From Pseudodesulfovibrio aespoeensis Aspo-2 (GTDB lineage: Bacteria > Desulfobacterota > Desulfovibrionia > Desulfovibrionales > Desulfovibrionaceae): a stretch of DNA of 64,000 bases. The translations under genes were made by a program, and so were the position numbers. The stretch covers positions 1,798,001-1,862,000 of the forward strand of contig NC_014844.1 of NCBI RefSeq assembly GCF_000176915.2, given 5' to 3'. Position 1 is the first letter of the stretch. Each line of letters starts with the position of its first letter. Of the stretch, positions 1-34,510 are shown in pieces. Under the pieces are notes generated by a model, which saw only the letters and a program-made list of their open reading frames with translations, made no database searches and was not told the DNA's origin.

Positions 1-2991
1 CTAAACGAGCAGCTCGCCGTGCTTGGTCAGCTTCAAACCACTATGCCCGGTTCCGAGGCGGGCACGCTGTACAAGGCGTTCATCATGAAGGCCGCCGAGG
101 CGGGTGATGAACTCGGCCTGTCCTTCACCGACGCCAGCGGCCGCCTCAAGGGCGTGGTTCCCATCCTGCAGGAGATCAAGCGCCAGTTTCCCGATCTTTC
201 CAACGCCGCCGCGCAGGTGAAACTGAAAAAAGCTTTCGGCTCCGACGAGGCGGTTAAATTCCTGTTGCAGATGTCGGCGGGAGTGAATTCCCTCGAAGGC
301 AATATCCAGTCGGTGGGCCGAGCCATGAAGACCGGCACGGCGGTCACCGAACAGATGGCCGACGCCATGAACCAGGACATCGGAGCCCGGTTCCTGCTCC
401 TGCGCCAGCAGATGGCCAACCTCAGCGAAATTCTGGGGCGCACCTTGCTGCCGGTGGTGACACCGGTCATCAACGGCGTCTCCCGCGTTATTCTCTTCCT
501 GCAGCGCATGGCCAAATCGATGCCGGGCGTGACCCGGGCGATCCTGGGACTATCCATGGCCCTCGGCACCATTCTGGTCGTGGCCGGAGCCGTCACCGCC
601 GCCGTGGGGATGGTGGGACTCATGCTTCCCGCTATCAAGGCCGGGTTCGTGGCCATCAGCGCCGCGCTGGCCGGGGTGGGTTCGGCGGTCGCGACCTATT
701 TTCTGCCAGTTACCGCGATTATTGCTGGCGTGATCCTCTCGGTTTATTTGCTCAAACGCGCCTGGGAAACCAACTTCGGCGGCATCCAGGACGTCATCAC
801 CGGGGCCTGGAACAAGGTCTCGCTGGTCTTCCGGGGGATCAGGGAGCTTGTGGGCTCGCTCAGCGGCGGTGTCGGACAGATGTCGGCCGAACTGGCCCAG
901 AAGCTCCAATCCGCCGGTCTGCTGGGCTTCGTGGTCACCGTCTTCAAAGCCTATTACCGCGTTCGTGAGGCACTGGCCGGATTGTGGGGCGCTTTTTCCC
1001 ATGCCTTTGGTCGCATCCGCGCCATCCTCGAACCGACCGTCCGCACCCTGATGAGCGCCTATGCGGCGCTGGCCAGCGCGGTCTTTTCGGTGGTGGAGAT
1101 CTTCGGCGTGGCCGCCAGCGCCACCGACGGCTCGTCCTGGCGCACCTTCGGCACGGTTATCGGCACCGTCGCCGGTGTGCTTCTTCAGGGGTTGGCATTC
1201 GCGCTGAAGATCGTGGCCTGGAACCTGTCGCTCATCGTCCGAGCCCTGGCGGTGGTGGTGCGCAGCGTGGTCTGGGTCGGCAAGGTCATCGTCGGGTCCC
1301 TGGTCGGAGCGGCCAAGTTTATCTACAAGTTCCTGTTGCCCGTGCGCATGATCGGCGAGGCCTTCGTGGCCGCCGGAAAGATCGTCTATGCGGTCTGGCA
1401 GGTGCTGACCGGCGACATTTCCCTGCTGGACGGTCTCAAGGCCATCGGCGGCGCGGTCTACGATTTTGTTGCCACCCCGTTCCGCTGGGCGCGGGATGTG
1501 GTGGTCGGTGTCTGGAATTTCTTTTCCGGCATTTTCACCTCCATCGGCCGCCTGGTGGCCGACGCTGCCGGACAGATCGGCCAGGCGATTCTGAACCTGC
1601 CGATCATCAGCACTCTGCGCGATCTGTTTGCCACCGTGCGCTCCTTCTTCGCCGGGGACACGACCTTTTTCGAGGCGGGCAAAAAGCTGCTGATCACCCT
1701 GGGCGAAGGGATCTGGTCGGCGGTGACCTATCCCTTCACCATGCTCAAGAACGCCCTGGGCAAGCTGCGCAATCTGCTGCCGTTCTCCGACGCCCGCGAG
1801 GGACCGCTCGCCAACCTGACCGCCTCCGGTTCCGCGCTGCTCAAGACCCTCGCCGACGGCATGAGCCTTAGTCAGTCGCTGCCCGCGAAAGTGTTCGGCT
1901 TCGCCGCTCGCGGGATTCTCTCGATCGCTGCAGGAGCCTGGCAACAGATTAAATCGGCGGGCGGCAACCTTATGGACGCCGCCTCGGTTCCCTTCCGCAT
2001 GGCTGGAAAACTCTGGGATGGGTTGACCTCCGGAGCTCAAACCGTCGCTACCAAGGCCGGTGCCATCTTGGGCGGTCTTAAACAGTCCCTGCTTGGCGGC
2101 ACGCCTGACCTGGCGCTCAAGCCGTCTCAGGTCAATGCCTGGGACGCTCTGGCCACGGGAGCCGTCAATGTCCGCGACCGGATCGTTGCCACGCTGTCGG
2201 CCGTGCCCGGCGCTGTCGGTCGAATCTTTGCCAGCGCCGGGGCCGAGGGGCAATCCCTCTGGCAGCGGCTTTCCAGCGGCGCGAGCGCGGGCATTCAGGC
2301 GATCAAGGATCGCAGCGCCGGGATCGCCAACGGTTTACTCACCTCCACTCGCGCTTTGCTGGGAGTCCAGGCCCCGGTTCCGCTGGTGGCCGAGCAACGT
2401 CAACCGCTCAAGACGACGCAGCCCACCGAATCGATTGGGCAACGCATCATCGAAAGCGTACTGAGTCTCGTGCCGCGTCTGGACGAACGCCTGGTGCCCA
2501 AGGCCCTGAGCGCCATGCTGATGCTCCAGCCGGTCATGGCCACGGTAGCGCCAACTCCGCAACCGATGAACGGCACAGTGCAAACCGTCGCAGCGGCCGT
2601 CGAGCCGGTAAGTAAGAGCTATATCCAGCCGTTCGCAGTGGAACCGGCAATGGAAAGAGGAGACGCCTCTCTGGCACCGGGCGGGATCGAGCGGCCCATG
2701 ACCGCTGCGCCGACTCCGATAACGAAGCCCCTGCAATCAGGACTAGCAGAGATGGTGCCATCCGAACGCTTGATTACTCCGGCCCGCACTGCTCCGGCGG
2801 CACCATTGCGGGGAGAGGAAGCCGGTCCGGGAGTGCGCGAACTGCTGGAATCCCTGCTCTCGCGCCTCGATGGCCTGGCCGACCGCCCGGTGGAATTGAG
2901 CGTGACCACCAACATCGATGGTCGGAAGGTGGCCGAGGCGGTCTACAAGGACCTGCGGGAGCGGAAGATCAGAAACTACGAAACCCTGTGA
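1..2991 (+). CDS. Phage tail tape measure protein (5' end outside window)
   Basis: Sets tail length and occupies the tail tube lumen in contractile and siphophage-type tails. The frame is open from base 1 (LNEQLA...), so the start lies upstream; about 996 residues are visible. The N-terminal part seen here matches the TP901-type tape measure style (PGSEAGTLYKAFIMKAAE, then DASGRLKGVV). It is followed by long hydrophobic, Gly/Ala-rich stretches with many W/F-rich repeats (residues about 170-720) and a Pro/Thr-rich linker before a short C-terminal helix. Lying first in a rightward tail operon with tube, hub and baseplate genes supports the call. The family assignment rests on composition and context more than on catalytic motifs. 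Confidence 0.88.
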   Translation, partial: LNEQLAVLGQLQTTMPGSEAGTLYKAFIMKAAEAGDELGLSFTDASGRLKGVVPILQEIKRQFPDLSNAAAQVKLKKAFGSDEAVKFLLQMSAGVNSLEGNIQSVGRAMKTGTAVTEQMADAMNQDIGARFLLLRQQMANLSEILGRTLLPVVTPVINGVSRVILFLQRMAKSMPGVTRAILGLSMALGTILVVAGAVTAAVGMVGLMLPAIKAGFVAISAALAGVGSAVATYFLPVTAIIAGVILSVYLLKRAWETNFGGIQDVITGAWNKVSLVFRGIRELVGSLSGGVGQMSAELAQKLQSAGLLGFVVTVFKAYYRVREALAGLWGAFSHAFGRIRAILEPTVRTLMSAYAALASAVFSVVEIFGVAASATDGSSWRTFGTVIGTVAGVLLQGLAFALKIVAWNLSLIVRALAVVVRSVVWVGKVIVGSLVGAAKFIYKFLLPVRMIGEAFVAAGKIVYAVWQVLTGDISLLDGLKAIGGAVYDFVATPFRWARDVVVGVWNFFSGIFTSIGRLVADAAGQIGQAILNLPIISTLRDLFATVRSFFAGDTTFFEAGKKLLITLGEGIWSAVTYPFTMLKNALGKLRNLLPFSDAREGPLANLTASGSALLKTLADGMSLSQSLPAKVFGFAARGILSIAAGAWQQIKSAGGNLMDAASVPFRMAGKLWDGLTSGAQTVATKAGAILGGLKQSLLGGTPDLALKPSQVNAWDALATGAVNVRDRIVATLSAVPGAVGRIFASAGAEGQSLWQRLSSGASAGIQAIKDRSAGIANGLLTSTRALLGVQAPVPLVAEQRQPLKTTQPTESIGQRIIESVLSLVPRLDERLVPKALSAMLMLQPVMATVAPTPQPMNGTVQTVAAAVEPVSKSYIQPFAVEPAMERGDASLAPGGIERPMTAAPTPITKPLQSGLAEMVPSERLITPARTAPAAPLRGEEAGPGVRELLESLLSRLDGLADRPVELSVTTNIDGRKVAEAVYKDLRERKIRNYETL

Positions 2992-4075: not shown

Positions 4076-4137
4076 TCCGACACCTCGCCATGCCTTCCGG
4101 TAAGTAAGCAGGGAACTGCGAACCACCGGAGAGACGC
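4076..4137 (+). promoter_or_regulatory. Putative cis-acting RNA element, copy 1
   Basis: An intergenic element shared with 11051-11138. It holds box 1 TCCGACAC (4076-4083), nine bases, box 2 CCTTCCGGTAAGTAA (4093-4107), a small hairpin GCAG-GGAA-CTGC (4108-4119), then box 3 ACCGGAGAGAC (4125-4135) just before ATG 4138. TCCGGT of box 2 is complementary to ACCGGA of box 3, so folding would hide the GGAGAG ribosome binding site. The pairing and repetition are seen; a regulatory role is inferred. Confidence 0.45.
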
Positions 4138-5430
4138 ATGGATCTGGATACTTTCAAGCCGACATTTTTGATTCAGATCGAGGGGCAAGACCTCTCGAAG
4201 GACATCACCCAGGAGATCACCTCTTTCGTCTTCACCGACAACGAGGAGGAGCTGGATATCCTCGAACTGTCGGTGACCGACCGCAACCTGCAGTTCGTCG
4301 ATGATCCTCTGTTCCAGGAAGGCAATGAGATCGTGGCCCGCTTCGGCTACGTGGGAAACCTCTCTCCGCGTAAGAAGGCGGTCATCAAAGACATCGATTA
4401 CGATTTTCCGGAAAACGGCGACCCGACCATCCGCATCAAGGCCTACGACAAGGGCTTTAAACTCGCGGGCAAGGAAAACCAGAAGGTCTGGCAGAAACCC
4501 GCTCCCGGCATCCTCTATTCGGAAATCGCCGAGCAGATCGCCGCCGCCAACGGCCTCACGTCGGTGGTCACTGCCACCAAGGGCAAACATCTCCGCGTCA
4601 CCCAGAGCAACATCTCGGACGCCCAGTTCCTGAAGGAGCTGGCGGAAAAAGCCCGTGACCGCGATGGCGACGGCGTGAGCGGCTATGTCTTCTACGTCCA
4701 GGACGACGAACTCCACTTCCATCCCCGCGAGCTCGACCAGACGCCGCTTCTGACCCTCGAATATTTCACCGACACCAAGGGCCTGTTGCGCTCGTTTCGC
4801 CCCAGCACCCAATCCCAGGGAGCCAAGGGCGCGGGTGTCGAGACCAAAACGGTCGGCGTCGACCCGCGCAAGAAGGACGTGGTCGAGCACAAGGCTAACA
4901 ACGCCACCACGCCCGAGCGCACGGCCCTGGGCAAGCAGACCTATCTGGTCGACGGCAACACCGGCGAAGGCAGCTTCAAAGAACAGGAGACGGGGCAGAT
5001 CGTGCCCAGCTTCGACCGTTCCGAAGGCTTTCACGATGAGCCGCGACAAGAGCCCGCCCAGGACAGCGCCGAAGGTAAGTTCCGCGAGGCCGAACTGCGT
5101 CAGGTCGAGGCGGATGCGGCCACTATCGGCATTCCCCAGCTACGCGCCAAGAAGAACGTCGAGATCAAGGGCGTGGGACGGAAGTTTTCCGGCATCTATT
5201 ACTGCCACTCGGTGCGCCACAGCATCAGCGGCGCTGGCTATCTCTGCGAACTCAAACTCAAGAAGAACGCTCTCGGCAAGGGCGCGGGCGACAAGTCCGC
5301 CGAGTCCCAGGGCAAACCCAACGACAAGGAGGCCCCGCCCACACCGCAAAACGAGCCGCCAGCCATGGTGACCATCAATGCGGACACCGGCGCGGTCACA
5401 CAAGGAGGCGGCAATGGGCGATCTCAGTAA
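4138..5430 (+). CDS. Phage late control gpD / VgrG-type baseplate hub protein
   Basis: A 430-residue hub protein of the gpD/gp27-like family, which forms the trimeric base on which the spike sits. The N terminus (FKPTFLIQIEGQDLSKDIT) and SVTDRNLQFVDDPLF are typical, followed by FGYVG, KAYDKGFKLAG and an SDAQFLKELAEKA segment before a second beta domain. A low-complexity Lys/Pro-rich tail covers residues about 375-420. It sits between the LysM protein and the gpV-like spike gene, as in Mu- and P2-like tails. Its ribosome binding site lies inside the repeated RNA-like element. Confidence 0.85.
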   Translation: MDLDTFKPTFLIQIEGQDLSKDITQEITSFVFTDNEEELDILELSVTDRNLQFVDDPLFQEGNEIVARFGYVGNLSPRKKAVIKDIDYDFPENGDPTIRIKAYDKGFKLAGKENQKVWQKPAPGILYSEIAEQIAAANGLTSVVTATKGKHLRVTQSNISDAQFLKELAEKARDRDGDGVSGYVFYVQDDELHFHPRELDQTPLLTLEYFTDTKGLLRSFRPSTQSQGAKGAGVETKTVGVDPRKKDVVEHKANNATTPERTALGKQTYLVDGNTGEGSFKEQETGQIVPSFDRSEGFHDEPRQEPAQDSAEGKFREAELRQVEADAATIGIPQLRAKKNVEIKGVGRKFSGIYYCHSVRHSISGAGYLCELKLKKNALGKGAGDKSAESQGKPNDKEAPPTPQNEPPAMVTINADTGAVTQGGGNGRSQ

Positions 5431-7258: not shown

Positions 7259-7633
7259 ATGGGAGAAAGAACAACAACGCCCTCCGGACTTTCGGCCAGC
7301 GAGGAATTGCTGGCCCGGACCTTCGATCATTGGCGGGAGGAATTCCGCAGCATCCTCGAAAGTCACCGCCGGGAAATCCAGGACCGACTCGAGAAGATCG
7401 AGCGTGAAATCGAGAAGAAATCGGACAAGGAAAACGTCGAGGTGCTGGTCCGCTCGATCTACTCCGATCTGCACCGGCACGCCGAGGAGATCGACCGGCT
7501 GCATGCCCGGGTCGGCTCCAAGATGGGGACCGAGACCATGTGGAAGATCGTCGGCCTGGTGTTGACCATCGGCAGCACCATCGGCGGACTTATCGGCTTT
7601 CTGATCCATCTGTTGCTGAAGGTGAACCCATGA
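7259..7633 (+). CDS. Small coiled-coil protein with C-terminal membrane segment
   Basis: A 124-residue protein with a long charged helix (residues about 18-90; ESHRREIQDRLEKIEREIEK) and one C-terminal hydrophobic segment, IVGLVLTIGSTIGGLIGFLI. This layout resembles XhlA-like haemolysin or holin accessory proteins of phages, but no family motif was recognised. It sits between the spike and PAAR genes and overlaps the latter by 4 bases. A role with the M15 lysin at 5414 is possible but unproven. Confidence 0.55.
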   Translation: MGERTTTPSGLSASEELLARTFDHWREEFRSILESHRREIQDRLEKIEREIEKKSDKENVEVLVRSIYSDLHRHAEEIDRLHARVGSKMGTETMWKIVGLVLTIGSTIGGLIGFLIHLLLKVNP

Positions 7634-7893
7634 GCTCCCAGGCGCGACTCGGCGACATCAGCAGTCACGGCGGCGTCATCATCACCGGGGCAAGCCGGAC
7701 GCTGGACAACGGCATGCCGGTCGCCCGCATGGGGGATCTGCACGTCTGTCCCATCCCGGGGCATGGCGTGACGCCCATCGTGACCGGCAGCTTCGACACC
7801 ATCACCGAAGGATTGCCCAACGCCCGCATCGGCGACATCACCGCCTGCGGAGCCATCATCGTCACCGGCAGTCCCGACACCATCGACAACTGA
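7630..7893 (+). CDS. PAAR-domain spike tip protein
   Basis: An 87-residue PAAR protein that would sharpen the tip of the gpV-type needle. Motifs are ARLGDISSHGGVIITG, ARMGDLHVCPIPGHG and ARIGDITACGAIIVTGS, with His/Cys residues (H and C in DLHVCPIPGH, C in TACG) suited to binding a metal ion. The length equals a bare PAAR domain, so there is no toxin extension. ATG 7630 overlaps the stop of the coiled-coil gene. Confidence 0.9.
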   Translation: MSSQARLGDISSHGGVIITGASRTLDNGMPVARMGDLHVCPIPGHGVTPIVTGSFDTITEGLPNARIGDITACGAIIVTGSPDTIDN

Positions 7894-11050: not shown

Positions 11051-11138
11051 TCCGACACATCCAGGTCCCTTCCGGTAAGTAACCGGCGTGGCGAGAGCAT
11101 CAGGCGCTCTCGCATAACCGCCGAAAACCGGAGAGACT
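11051..11138 (+). promoter_or_regulatory. Putative cis-acting RNA element, copy 2
   Basis: Second copy of the element at 4076-4137. Box 1 TCCGACAC (11051-11058) is followed by the same nine-base gap, then box 2 CCTTCCGGTAAGTAA (11068-11082), and box 3 ACCGGAGAGAC (11127-11137) before ATG 11139. The insert between boxes 2 and 3 is longer (44 bases) and folds as its own hairpin: GCGAGAGC pairs with GCTCTCGC, and CGGCG with CGCCG outside it. TCCGGT and ACCGGA can again pair and cover the ribosome binding site. Confidence 0.45.
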
Positions 11139-12548
11139 ATGGGCCGCGCAAGCATCGGATACATCAACAAGGATTATGAATCGATCCGCCAGGAGCTGCT
11201 GGCGAAGATCCCGCAGCTCACCGACCGCTGGACCGATTTCAATCACTCCGATCTCGGCGTCGTCCTGCTCGATCTGTTCTGCGGCGTGGGCGACATGCTG
11301 GCCTATTACCTGGACGCCCAGGCGGCGGAGGCCTTTCTGCCCACGGCCCGCCAGCGGCAGAACGTCATCAACCTCTGCAAGCTCATCGGCTACCGGTTGG
11401 ACTCGCCGGTGGCCTCCACCACCACGCTGCGTTTTCGGCTCTCCGCCCCGCTTGGCAAGGACCTGACCATTCCGGCGGGGACGGCCTGCCGCGCCTTGCT
11501 TAGTGACGGCGAGGCGGATTTCGAGACGGTCGAGGACGGCCTGATCCCGCGAGGCGTGCTCTCGGTGGACATCCCGGCCCGTCAAGGCGTGCGCCGCACC
11601 GAGACCTTCACATCGACGGGGCTGCCATTCCAGCGCATCCGCCTGACCGGCGACGTCATCGCCCAGGGCACCATCACCGTTACGGTGGGGGACGACGCAT
11701 GGAGCGAGGTCGATCATTTTCAGGACAGCTTGGCCGACAGCCGCCATTTCATGGCCGACCTGGATGCGCTCGACATCTCTACCCTGATTTTCGGCGACGG
11801 GCAAAGCGGCGCTGTACCCGCTCAGGGAAGCGCCATCACCGTCAGCTATCTGCAGACCATCGGTGACCAGGGCAATCTCGGTCCGAACCGGATCTCCCAA
11901 CTGCTGAGCCCGGTCTACCTCGACGGCGGCCAGGTCTCCCTGACCGTCACCAATCCTGTTCCCGCCACCGGCGGCGCTTCGCGGGAAGCCCTCGAACACG
12001 CCCGTCGACAGGCACCGGCGGAGCTGCGCAGTCTCTGGAAGGCCGTCACCCTGGAGGATTACCAGGCCCTCGCCGAGGGTTACCCCGGCGTCGCCAAGGC
12101 CAAGGTGCTCGACACCAATGCCTGTCAGAACATTCGCTATTACAACGTCCAACTGGCCATCGCCCCCAACGGCGGCGGAATGCCCTCGGCGCTGCTCAAG
12201 CGGGACCTCGCGGAGTTTCTCGAGCGCCGCAAGGTCATCACGGTTGAGATCAATCTGTTCGATCCGATCTACCGCCCCGTTTCCATCGACGCCGAGGTCT
12301 ACATCTGGCCCGGTGAACCGCTGGAAAACGTGCGCAGCCGCATCGAAGCAGCGCTCACCGATTTCTTTTCCTTCGACGAGGTCTCCTTCGGTCAGACCAT
12401 TCACTTCTCCGACCTGGTGGCCCTGATCGATGGCGTGCGTGGCGTCAGCCACATGCATCTCTACGCGCCCCAGCAGGACATCGAGCTGCGCCACGGCGAA
12501 ATCCCGGTTCTCGGCACCGTCAACCTCGATCTGCGGAGGGCCGGTTGA
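11139..12548 (+). CDS. Baseplate assembly protein J family
   Basis: A 469-residue gpJ-type wedge protein. Recognisable parts are ITKDYESIRQ-like YINKDYESIRQELLAKI at the N terminus, FNHSDLGVVLLDLFCGVGDML, then FRLSAPLGKDLTIPAGTACR. The central signature is EALEHARRQAPAELRSLWKAVT followed by EDYQALAEGYPGVAKAKV. It connects wedge subunits around the hub. It begins directly after the second RNA-like element and is followed by the gpI gene with a 1-base overlap. Confidence 0.9.
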   Translation: MGRASIGYINKDYESIRQELLAKIPQLTDRWTDFNHSDLGVVLLDLFCGVGDMLAYYLDAQAAEAFLPTARQRQNVINLCKLIGYRLDSPVASTTTLRFRLSAPLGKDLTIPAGTACRALLSDGEADFETVEDGLIPRGVLSVDIPARQGVRRTETFTSTGLPFQRIRLTGDVIAQGTITVTVGDDAWSEVDHFQDSLADSRHFMADLDALDISTLIFGDGQSGAVPAQGSAITVSYLQTIGDQGNLGPNRISQLLSPVYLDGGQVSLTVTNPVPATGGASREALEHARRQAPAELRSLWKAVTLEDYQALAEGYPGVAKAKVLDTNACQNIRYYNVQLAIAPNGGGMPSALLKRDLAEFLERRKVITVEINLFDPIYRPVSIDAEVYIWPGEPLENVRSRIEAALTDFFSFDEVSFGQTIHFSDLVALIDGVRGVSHMHLYAPQQDIELRHGEIPVLGTVNLDLRRAG

Positions 12549-32996: not shown

Positions 32997-34510
32997 TTAC
33001 GGAGGATCGCAAATTCCTGGATCTGGATCATGTGTGCGACCAGATTGTTAGCCAAGATGATCGCGCCATGTTCAATGAGGCAATTCGGTGTTATCAGATT
33101 GGGTCTCACCGGGCTGCGGTGATTTTGGCTTGGTGCGTAACGGCGGACTGCCTTTATCGTAGAATCGATGATCTGGCAAATGAAGGAGACGGCGTAGCTC
33201 AACAAGCCCGAAATGACCTTCGAAGTGTTGTGGGGCAAGCGTGCTATGAGGAAAACCTTATTGTACAGGCAAAGAAATGCGAGCTGTTTGATGATTACGA
33301 AGAAAAGTGCCTACGTTTTGCTCGAGACACTCGGTCTAAATGTGCGCATCCAACAGGAGTAATTCCCTCTGCGGAAGCGGTGCGCAACATCTTTCATATC
33401 TGTTCTCAAACCGTCTTGTGCCGAGACGGATATAGGGGCATGTCATTTGTTAGGCAGTTCGTTCAATCAAAACTCGATGATAGGCATCTGTTTACCGACA
33501 AAAATCGCGTCCAGGAAGCATGCCGTTATTACTTTGGAAAGGTGCCGGAACGAATTCGGCCACAGTTCGCAGCTTGTTCTGCCGACCATGTGCGAAGTGG
33601 CGTAAGCCTTCAGTGGAAACAGAATGCGTTTCGCTTTTTCAAAGAATTAATCAACTGCTCATCAGATGAACTTGCGCTGAAAATATCCCAAAAATTCCAG
33701 CCAATAGAATCAATTGACAGGACTCTGTTTTCAGTTTTCGTTGGAATTGATGAAAGGGATAATCTTTGGGATGGCCATTCCAGAAGTCAGGCGAAAGCAC
33801 ATCTAAGAGACGCGCTCAAAACGGGGAGAATCGATTCATTCGAATTTGATTCCTATGGAAACCTTTGCGCCTTATGCGATTTTGAGGTTGAAGACCAAGA
33901 TCTTTTTAAAGAACGCTTTTCGCTTATAGCTGAACACCTCTCTCAGCATCCGGTTTTAATCTTCCGTAGGAGGTCAGAAATATTGTCTCTTATCACAGAG
34001 GCAATGAAGGATGATCAACATCGGCAACAGATTTTCAAGGGTGTTGCATGGTTGGTATCTGGTGATCTCTTCATGCAAGAATCCGAGGAGATCACGCGAT
34101 TCGTTGATGAACTCATCGAGAGCGATTGGCGGGAGGAAAATGTAAGCGACCTCTTCTTGATGTGCTCTGATTGGTCGGACATCTTAAAGGTTCATCTACT
34201 CAAAAAATCGGAGCGGTTTTTCGAAGAGTGCTCGGAAGATTTCCCTGATGACCTAGTTCAGTTATTTGATGCGGCAAATAGTCTAATTTCTTCCAATCCT
34301 TCCATGCTCCCCTCCGAATTTGAAGTGGCCATAAAGGGGATTATTGACGGCGACCAAAATGTTGTCTGGTTTGATGACAAAGGGTCGGCATTCCGAACCT
34401 TTGTCGGTCAAATTGACTTGATCCGTACTCAGCATGGGGTCCACCTTCCAGTACTTTCTTCGTTAATCCTGCCTGAAATCGAACCTGAGGAGCTTGTTGA
34501 GAATGAATAG
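32993..34510 (+). CDS. Unknown BREX-inserted protein with HEPN-like N terminus
   Basis: A 505-residue protein of no recognised family. Residues about 25-125 are all-helical (MFNEAIRCYQIGSHRAAVIL, AWCVTADCLYRRIDD). They end in RDTRSKCAHP, giving R114-x4-H119, the RxxxxH pattern of HEPN ribonucleases and toxins. The remaining 380 residues are helical and acidic without known motifs. It overlaps pglX (ATGA) and brxHII, so it is translated with the BREX genes. It could be an abortive-infection effector or an accessory subunit; nuclease activity is inference. Confidence 0.5.
   Translation: MITEDRKFLDLDHVCDQIVSQDDRAMFNEAIRCYQIGSHRAAVILAWCVTADCLYRRIDDLANEGDGVAQQARNDLRSVVGQACYEENLIVQAKKCELFDDYEEKCLRFARDTRSKCAHPTGVIPSAEAVRNIFHICSQTVLCRDGYRGMSFVRQFVQSKLDDRHLFTDKNRVQEACRYYFGKVPERIRPQFAACSADHVRSGVSLQWKQNAFRFFKELINCSSDELALKISQKFQPIESIDRTLFSVFVGIDERDNLWDGHSRSQAKAHLRDALKTGRIDSFEFDSYGNLCALCDFEVEDQDLFKERFSLIAEHLSQHPVLIFRRRSEILSLITEAMKDDQHRQQIFKGVAWLVSGDLFMQESEEITRFVDELIESDWREENVSDLFLMCSDWSDILKVHLLKKSERFFEECSEDFPDDLVQLFDAANSLISSNPSMLPSEFEVAIKGIIDGDQNVVWFDDKGSAFRTFVGQIDLIRTQHGVHLPVLSSLILPEIEPEELVENE

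Follow-up and report, generated by a model that had tools for sequence, protein, structure and literature searches.

Phage-encoded sigma factors that serve several late promoters have been described for Salmonella phage 7-11 (SaPh711_gp47) and for phiEco32 (gp36). Eight promoters in 7-11 and six in phiEco32 were identified before late or middle/late genes. In 7-11 the consensus has two parts separated by 16 bases (GTAAtg-16-aCTA), in phiEco32 it is a single box, tAATGTAtA, and transcripts of both phages start 6–9 nt behind the -10 box (all from excerpts of PMC8948821). Longer transcripts of T4 gene e form a stem over the ribosome site, and the DNA that encodes the 5' strand of this stem contains late promoters. 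RNA initiated at these promoters is free, and other such leaders are those of soc, 49 and I-TevI (excerpts of PMC3014915). As far as these excerpts reach, the 7-11 and phiEco32 promoters are the closest known counterparts to the sigma part of the locus analysed here, and T4 gene e to its RNA part.

The locus belongs to the genome of Pseudodesulfovibrio aespoeensis Aspo-2, which is one contig of 3.63 Mb. The window, i.e. the whole stretch of 64,000 nucleotides that was analysed, corresponds to chromosome positions 1798001-1862000. It overlaps a prophage whose approximate extent on the host chromosome, in our estimate, is 1758-1822 kb. Among 30 proteins upstream of the window, PHROGs recognised a sigma factor, exonucleases, a Sak4-like protein, SSB, primase and integrase pieces as well as terminase, portal, minor and major head proteins and a DNA methyltransferase. 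Near the terminase genes, a minus-strand integrase-like sequence is split over two separate ORFs (chromosome 1775492-1776761). Pfam found a contractile-injection tube protein, an OB spike domain and Baseplate_J among ten proteins of the window.

Throughout this prophage, a 31-bp block is repeated that is probably the promoter of the phage's own ECF-type sigma factor, set before successive operons. Sigma binding, start sites and timing at the blocks are what we infer from the sequence. Like 7-11 and phiEco32, the prophage would combine a phage sigma with promoters before several late operons, and 7-11 shares the bipartite design. The two phages differ in that they are lytic, have enterobacterial hosts and use other promoter letters, and a ribosome-site lock is not among the features given in the excerpts of PMC8948821. 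No description of the present promoter set was found among open-licence PMC papers.

The 31-bp block and its copies

The first-pass annotation had reported three boxes before two genes of the window, and both copies were located where it had placed them. The first gene, named gpD in that annotation, lies directly behind the block (4138..5430, plus strand, ATG at 4138) and its protein has no Pfam match at E 0.001. The second is a gpJ-like Baseplate_J gene (11139..12548, plus strand, ATG at 11139; PF04865, E 3.5e-16). Box 1, TCCGACAC, occupies 4076-4083 and 11051-11058 and is followed after nine bases by box 2, CCTTCCGGTAAGTAA, at 4093-4107 and 11068-11082. Behind box 2 come hairpins at 4108-4119 and about 11084-11123, and then box 3, ACCGGAGAGAC, at 4125-4135 and 11127-11137, with a gap to the ATG of two bases for gpD and one base for gpJ. 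That this is not a chance repeat was borne out by box 2, which gave four matches in the window with up to three mismatches against 0.63 expected, a number reached by none of 100 shuffles. Box 3 alone, with up to two mismatches, was not above chance (23 matches vs 19.85, reached by 28 of 100 shuffles). Neither the description as a pair nor box 3 as a fixed part of the repeat held, as there are nine exact copies of the block in the genome and several copies have no box 3.

The repeated unit is CCGAC-N15-CCGGTAAGTAA, of fixed length. All nine exact copies are on one strand and in the prophage, at chromosome positions 1764234, 1773353, 1774446, 1779210, 1781696, 1788242, 1793638, 1802077 (window 4077) and 1809052 (window 11052). 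The copy before gpD (4077..4107, plus strand, matrix score 43.6) is a putative promoter with a -35-like CCGAC at 4077-4081, an 18-base spacer and a -10-like GTAAGTAA at 4100-4107. The exact copy before the Baseplate_J gene (11052..11082, plus strand) has the same elements at 11052-11056 and 11075-11082. The nine exact blocks scored 36.6–49.1 with the position weight matrix and two weaker copies 14.9 and 25.8, while the best score in each of five shuffles was only 5.5–9.1. These inexact copies, also in the prophage, lie at 1800585 (one mismatch; window 2585) and on the minus strand at 1759660 (two mismatches). As a control for the spacing, the pattern with a spacer one base shorter had no prophage sites in six genomes, compared with nine sites for the right spacer in the Aspo-2 genome alone.

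The weaker copy in the window, CCGTC..CCGGTAAGTAA (2585..2615, plus strand, one mismatch, score 14.9), is inside the tape-measure ORF 19-2991, about 1.5 kb ahead of the gpD block. The corresponding copy in type-2 phages is stronger and similarly far away (34101-34131 and 35642 in viral record G087). The copy inside the tape-measure ORF is possibly an internal promoter.

A called gene on the same strand comes next after eight of the nine exact blocks; the block at 1781696 instead precedes an insert. Across 42 representatives from many phages, the distance from the block to the chosen start was 15–111 nt (starts closer than 14 nt were excluded). The first-pass annotation had thought of an RNA switch for baseplate genes, which received no support, since the block also precedes portal, methyltransferase, Mor-like-adjacent and other genes. 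The same two-box word with a fixed gap thus stands on the same strand before several operons, as in a phage late promoter set.

Among 60 relatives in the host genus, four had one loose match each (two mismatches) and 56 had none. In 30 phage records that were picked for holding the block or the sigma, all 30 contained matches, 131 in total vs 21 for the reversed pattern. They were confined to a single strand in 26 records (exceptions G061, G071, G073 and G082), and one 54-kb contig had ten on one strand and zero on the other. The letters of the block differ between phages and agree within one phage: both copies in L094 read CCGTC...CCGGGTAGTTAA, and L097 and L180 have CGGAC...CGGCGTAGGTAA. Over 19 positions, copies before different genes differed on average by 0–3.2 letters within a phage type and by 4.4 between types, a separation matched by none of 5,000 label shuffles, with some within-type rows being orthologous. 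Desulfosarcina alkanivorans has two prophages, of which the diverged one encodes a sigma of its own and contains eight sites. These scored 28.7–41.8 with a matrix built from the same sites, and the next-best score was 8.2.

The phage sigma factor and its link to the block

The sigma factor of the prophage (194 aa, chromosome 1763646-1764230) is encoded about 34 kb upstream of the window. It matched phrog_1740 (E 7.6e-25) and the sigma70-ECF model TIGR02937 with 54.6 bits, above the cut-off of 42.9. The Pfam sigma regions were just below their cut-offs (r2 22.8, cut-off 24; r4_2 20.3, cut-off 25.7). Its structure model was modest (pLDDT 75.7, pTM 0.41), with two helical parts and a poorly modelled linker. 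A Foldseek search of the PDB was led by ECF sigmas such as SigH, AlgU and RpoE (E down to 2.5e-4, probability 1.00), with a TM score of about 0.3, as expected when two domains are loosely linked. Before the sigma gene, no sigma-70 promoter was found by a simple consensus scan (L050 4850-6400).

FliA/sigma-28 promoters have the layout TAAA-N15-GCCGATAA, which is the same as that of the block when written as CCGA-N15-TCCGGTAA, but the FliA -35 letters are different. The sigma itself also sides with the ECF group, as TIGR02937 was matched by all 19 sigma relatives (E 0.01) and FliA_WhiG by only five of them. In 50,697 phage records, tblastn (E 0.01) matched this sigma only in seven records of Wolbachia phage WO, with 25–27% identity over 85–95% of its length; the sigmas of 7-11 and phiEco32 were absent from the matches. 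Three WO stretches that were looked at contained no repeated block. In two WO records, GGACGAATTRCMTAGGTCA is conserved behind the sigma gene (L190 about 9522, L191 about 18535), with one copy per stretch and a spacing unlike that of the block.

Relatives of the sigma were collected from viral contigs (two overlapping sets of 17 and 36 loci) and from species genomes (six loci, namely Desulfofustis, Desulforhopalus, Desulfosarcina, two Deltaproteobacteria bins and one distant Bacillota bin). A block of the same 31-bp layout started 1–23 nt behind the matched sigma sequence at 42 of 45 loci tested (relatives 30–100% identical), compared with 68 of 16,318 random 120-nt windows from the same loci; the degenerate pattern used here had been widened after viewing these sequences, and many of the loci are near-identical. 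The misses were L078, where the contig ends, L079 in the Bacillota bin (28% identity) and L186, the second sigma of one contig. The linkage could reflect shared synteny. The letters of the block shift along with the phage and its sigma family.

We consider it unlikely that the block is an operator for another phage DNA-binding protein that acts with the host sigma. The candidate is a 92-aa Mor-like protein (chromosome 1774198-1774476) with weak matches to the late transcriptional activator phrog_836 (E 2.7e-5) and to Pfam Mor (E 0.043), and its gene ends within one of the blocks. Of 35 genomes or records, 18 had the protein; it was seen in none of nine diverged block-bearing ones, all nine of which have the sigma; its absence is weak evidence because the nine are fragments and the protein is short.

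The insert mentioned above covers chromosome 1781694-1788240, about 6.5 kb with minus-strand genes, between two blocks before the methyltransferase gene. Its left block (1781694) has the spacer of the other phage type, so the region looks mosaic. Such an arrangement would fit a repeat that marks recombination or module boundaries. As an account of the block this is hardly credible, because its strand follows the downstream gene even where that gene is inverted relative to the sigma, its spacing is fixed around a free spacer and it is linked to the sigma.

On the promoter reading, host RNA polymerase with the ECF-type sigma of the prophage would read a bipartite promoter made of the -35-like CCGAC, 18 bases and the -10-like GTAAGTAA. 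Once the sigma is made, the copies before successive operons would switch their genes on together. The universal part, i.e. the block and its tie to the sigma, is what a promoter set looks like. Block and sigma would then give a readable regulon for a mostly metagenomic phage family, whose operons could be mapped from the letters alone and whose named hosts found here are Desulfofustis glycolicus, a Desulforhopalus and Desulfosarcina alkanivorans. Sigma relatives from 30% identity upwards, whose genes are each followed by a different version of the putative promoter, may serve as material for studying ECF promoter choice.

Predicted pairing between the block and the ribosome site

The leader of gpD was predicted to fold onto the block. 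In the predicted stem over the ribosome site, TCCGGT (4096..4101, plus strand) is the 5' strand, and box 3 ACCGGAGAGAC (4125..4135, plus strand) contains the Shine-Dalgarno GGAG and the 3' strand; the predicted outer pairs join 4089-4093 with 4136-4140. The variable hairpin GCAG-GGAA-CTGC lies in between (4108..4119, plus strand). Of five offsets compared, only the position directly behind the block had a folding z that was clearly low (mean -0.96, n=49). For gpJ, a stem-loop was predicted at 11072..11131 (plus strand) with the pairs 11072-11076/11127-11131, 11084-11088/11119-11123 and 11091-11098/11106-11113. In most phage types seen, the spacer plus TCCGG was predicted to pair with the Shine-Dalgarno and sometimes the start codon, namely for gpD, gpJ, the methyltransferase gene, the MSLL gene and a 182-aa tail gene, and the predicted inner helices differ in letters between types. 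Examples are GGTTTCAGG with CCTGAAACC just ahead of the ATG at 1773353 and CGTCTCCGGGT with ACCCGGAGACG in L091. Exceptions include L132, and gpD and the tail gene of the second Desulfosarcina prophage fold otherwise.

The TCCGGT/ACCGGA stem, in which compensatory changes would have supported a structured RNA, showed no general covariation where box 2 changes. The strict test comprised 27 representative TCCGGT sites, 12 of them with ACCGGA downstream, and 22 sites with another box 2. At these 22, the exact complement occurred in three vs 18 of 410 swapped pairs, and five of six bases matched in seven vs 126 of 410. Without covariation in diverged phages the stem is not a universal function, and the six-base stem as the sole function was ruled out. 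In the classical covariation alignments, only gpJ was counted and the other two were left out because their registers slide between phage types. Over six gpJ sequences and 14 pairs, one pair changes from C-G to G-C and 92.9% of cells pair vs 26–54% when slid; the covariation score was weak, being reached by 34 of 500 shuffles.

Within the clade that carries TCCGGT, the predicted pairing extends beyond the six bases. In three such phages, CCGGA precedes seven of 13 block-led genes vs four of 65 others (one-sided Fisher p=1.6e-4), with genes partly homologous between the phages and called by a simple caller. A two-phage version gave 5/12 vs 5/59, two of the five being reverse-strand artefacts, and the Aspo-2 prophage alone 3/8 vs 3/59. 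The 14 variable spacer bases were then exchanged between sites and folded, in one of several related tests on one data set whose p-values are uncorrected. Own spacers folded 1.3 kcal/mol better on average than swapped ones at 24 TCCGGT sites (p=0.0019; p=0.0044 for the 17 that have a core match and p=0.053 for the remaining seven). The 18 diverged sites were unaffected by the exchange (p=0.47), all 42 sites gave p=0.039, and exchanging the 14 bases upstream of the block gave p=0.27. Duplex energies alone, likewise uncorrected, gave p=0.0017 for 13 core sites, 0.012 for 41 sites and 0.35 for 28 non-core sites. With spacer plus box 2 the values were p=0.011 (24 sites) and 0.0009 (42 sites), and for the spacer without box 2 they were not significant (0.21 and 0.73). 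An ungapped extension score reached p=0.06 at the 13 core sites.

The predicted accessibility of the Shine-Dalgarno pointed in the same direction. In read-through RNA, its median unpaired probability was 0.03 for 13 block-led genes vs 0.32 for 69 others (p=0.001), with folded stretches that differ in length between the two groups, and it was 0.48 for the block-led genes when the folded RNA started 4 nt behind the block. The gpD gene of the window is not among the 13, as the caller missed it; its values were 0.22 in read-through RNA, 0.55 from the promoter and 0.48 with shuffled blocks. Over 26 TCCGGT sites, the mean was 0.20 as observed vs 0.35 with shuffled blocks (p=0.0004), and 17 other sites were unaffected by the shuffling (p=0.70). 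The earlier claim that the element can hide the ribosome binding site therefore finds computed support in the TCCGGT clade, through the CCGGA counts, the swap test and the burial predicted in read-through RNA. Against it stand two sites located behind the sigma gene that retain the block and have no predicted lock (L058 0.51, L061 0.38 unpaired).

A block that, together with hairpin and box 3, acts purely in cis as a translational switch in the mRNA, and is no promoter, would account for the folding directly behind it and for the extended pairing in the TCCGGT clade. The stem, however, leaves the most constant letters, CCGAC and GTAAGTAA, unexplained. The blocks also persist where no lock is predicted and are linked to a sigma gene, and Rfam has no match at the site, which makes this very unlikely. 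The empty Rfam result agrees with the annotation, which had recognised no known riboswitch class. Its reading as a structured RNA can be kept in part: the constant 31 bp with fixed spacing behave like a sigma-tied promoter, and the variable spacer fits its own leader in the clade.

Besides the promoter, a ribosome-site lock formed by the spacer and TCCGG is tentatively proposed, as a second layer in the TCCGGT clade. RNA read through from upstream would have its Shine-Dalgarno and sometimes its start codon covered, while RNA begun at the block promoter would lack the 5' strand of the stem and be translated. As far as the excerpts of PMC3014915 go, the proposed layout resembles that of T4 gene e, where promoter DNA codes for the 5' strand of a ribosome-site stem. 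T4 differs in that few genes are concerned, with experimental proof for e, whereas here a predicted stem would serve several operons of one regulon at an unrelated promoter. A lock of this type was predicted in the TCCGGT clade and not at the 18 diverged sites. One clade of temperate phages may thus have built many sigma-dependent promoters into the 5' strand of such a lock, so that one 31-bp word gates transcription and silences read-through messages, in a regulon-wide version of what T4 does at a few genes; on the folding predictions, we hold this to be possible, somewhat short of probable. Should the lock prove real, it would show how a temperate phage can repress its lytic genes at two levels, transcription and translation.

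The hairpin as the 5' end of the transcript was considered and disfavoured. If transcripts begin 6–9 nt downstream of the -10 box, as reported for 7-11 and phiEco32 in the excerpts, their first base would lie within the gpD hairpin, and a role of the hairpin in closing the lock fits better.

Further RNA-like elements

Behind the minus-strand block copy, a strongly conserved and apparently non-coding leader of about 170 nt was observed (L050 about 1475-1690, minus strand, corresponding to chromosome about 1759475-1759690). It reads AGGCGGTTGTGGGTGC ... GCGCATCCCAACCGCC ... TGGCATCCAC and is followed by an ORF of about 80 aa. Orthologues are present in L059, L063, L067, L068, L070, L074, L075 and L147. 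The leader had no Rfam match above the gathering score. Two stretches further downstream are alternative predicted pairing partners of its GTGGGTGCC, and the leader may therefore be a structured RNA.

In the window, the Rfam family of Pseudomonas sRNA P10 (RF01668) matched 7728-7799 just above the cut-off (37.7 vs 37). The match sits inside the called ORF 7630-7893, the product of which we take by eye to be of PAAR type. RF01668 may be a protein-coding sequence.
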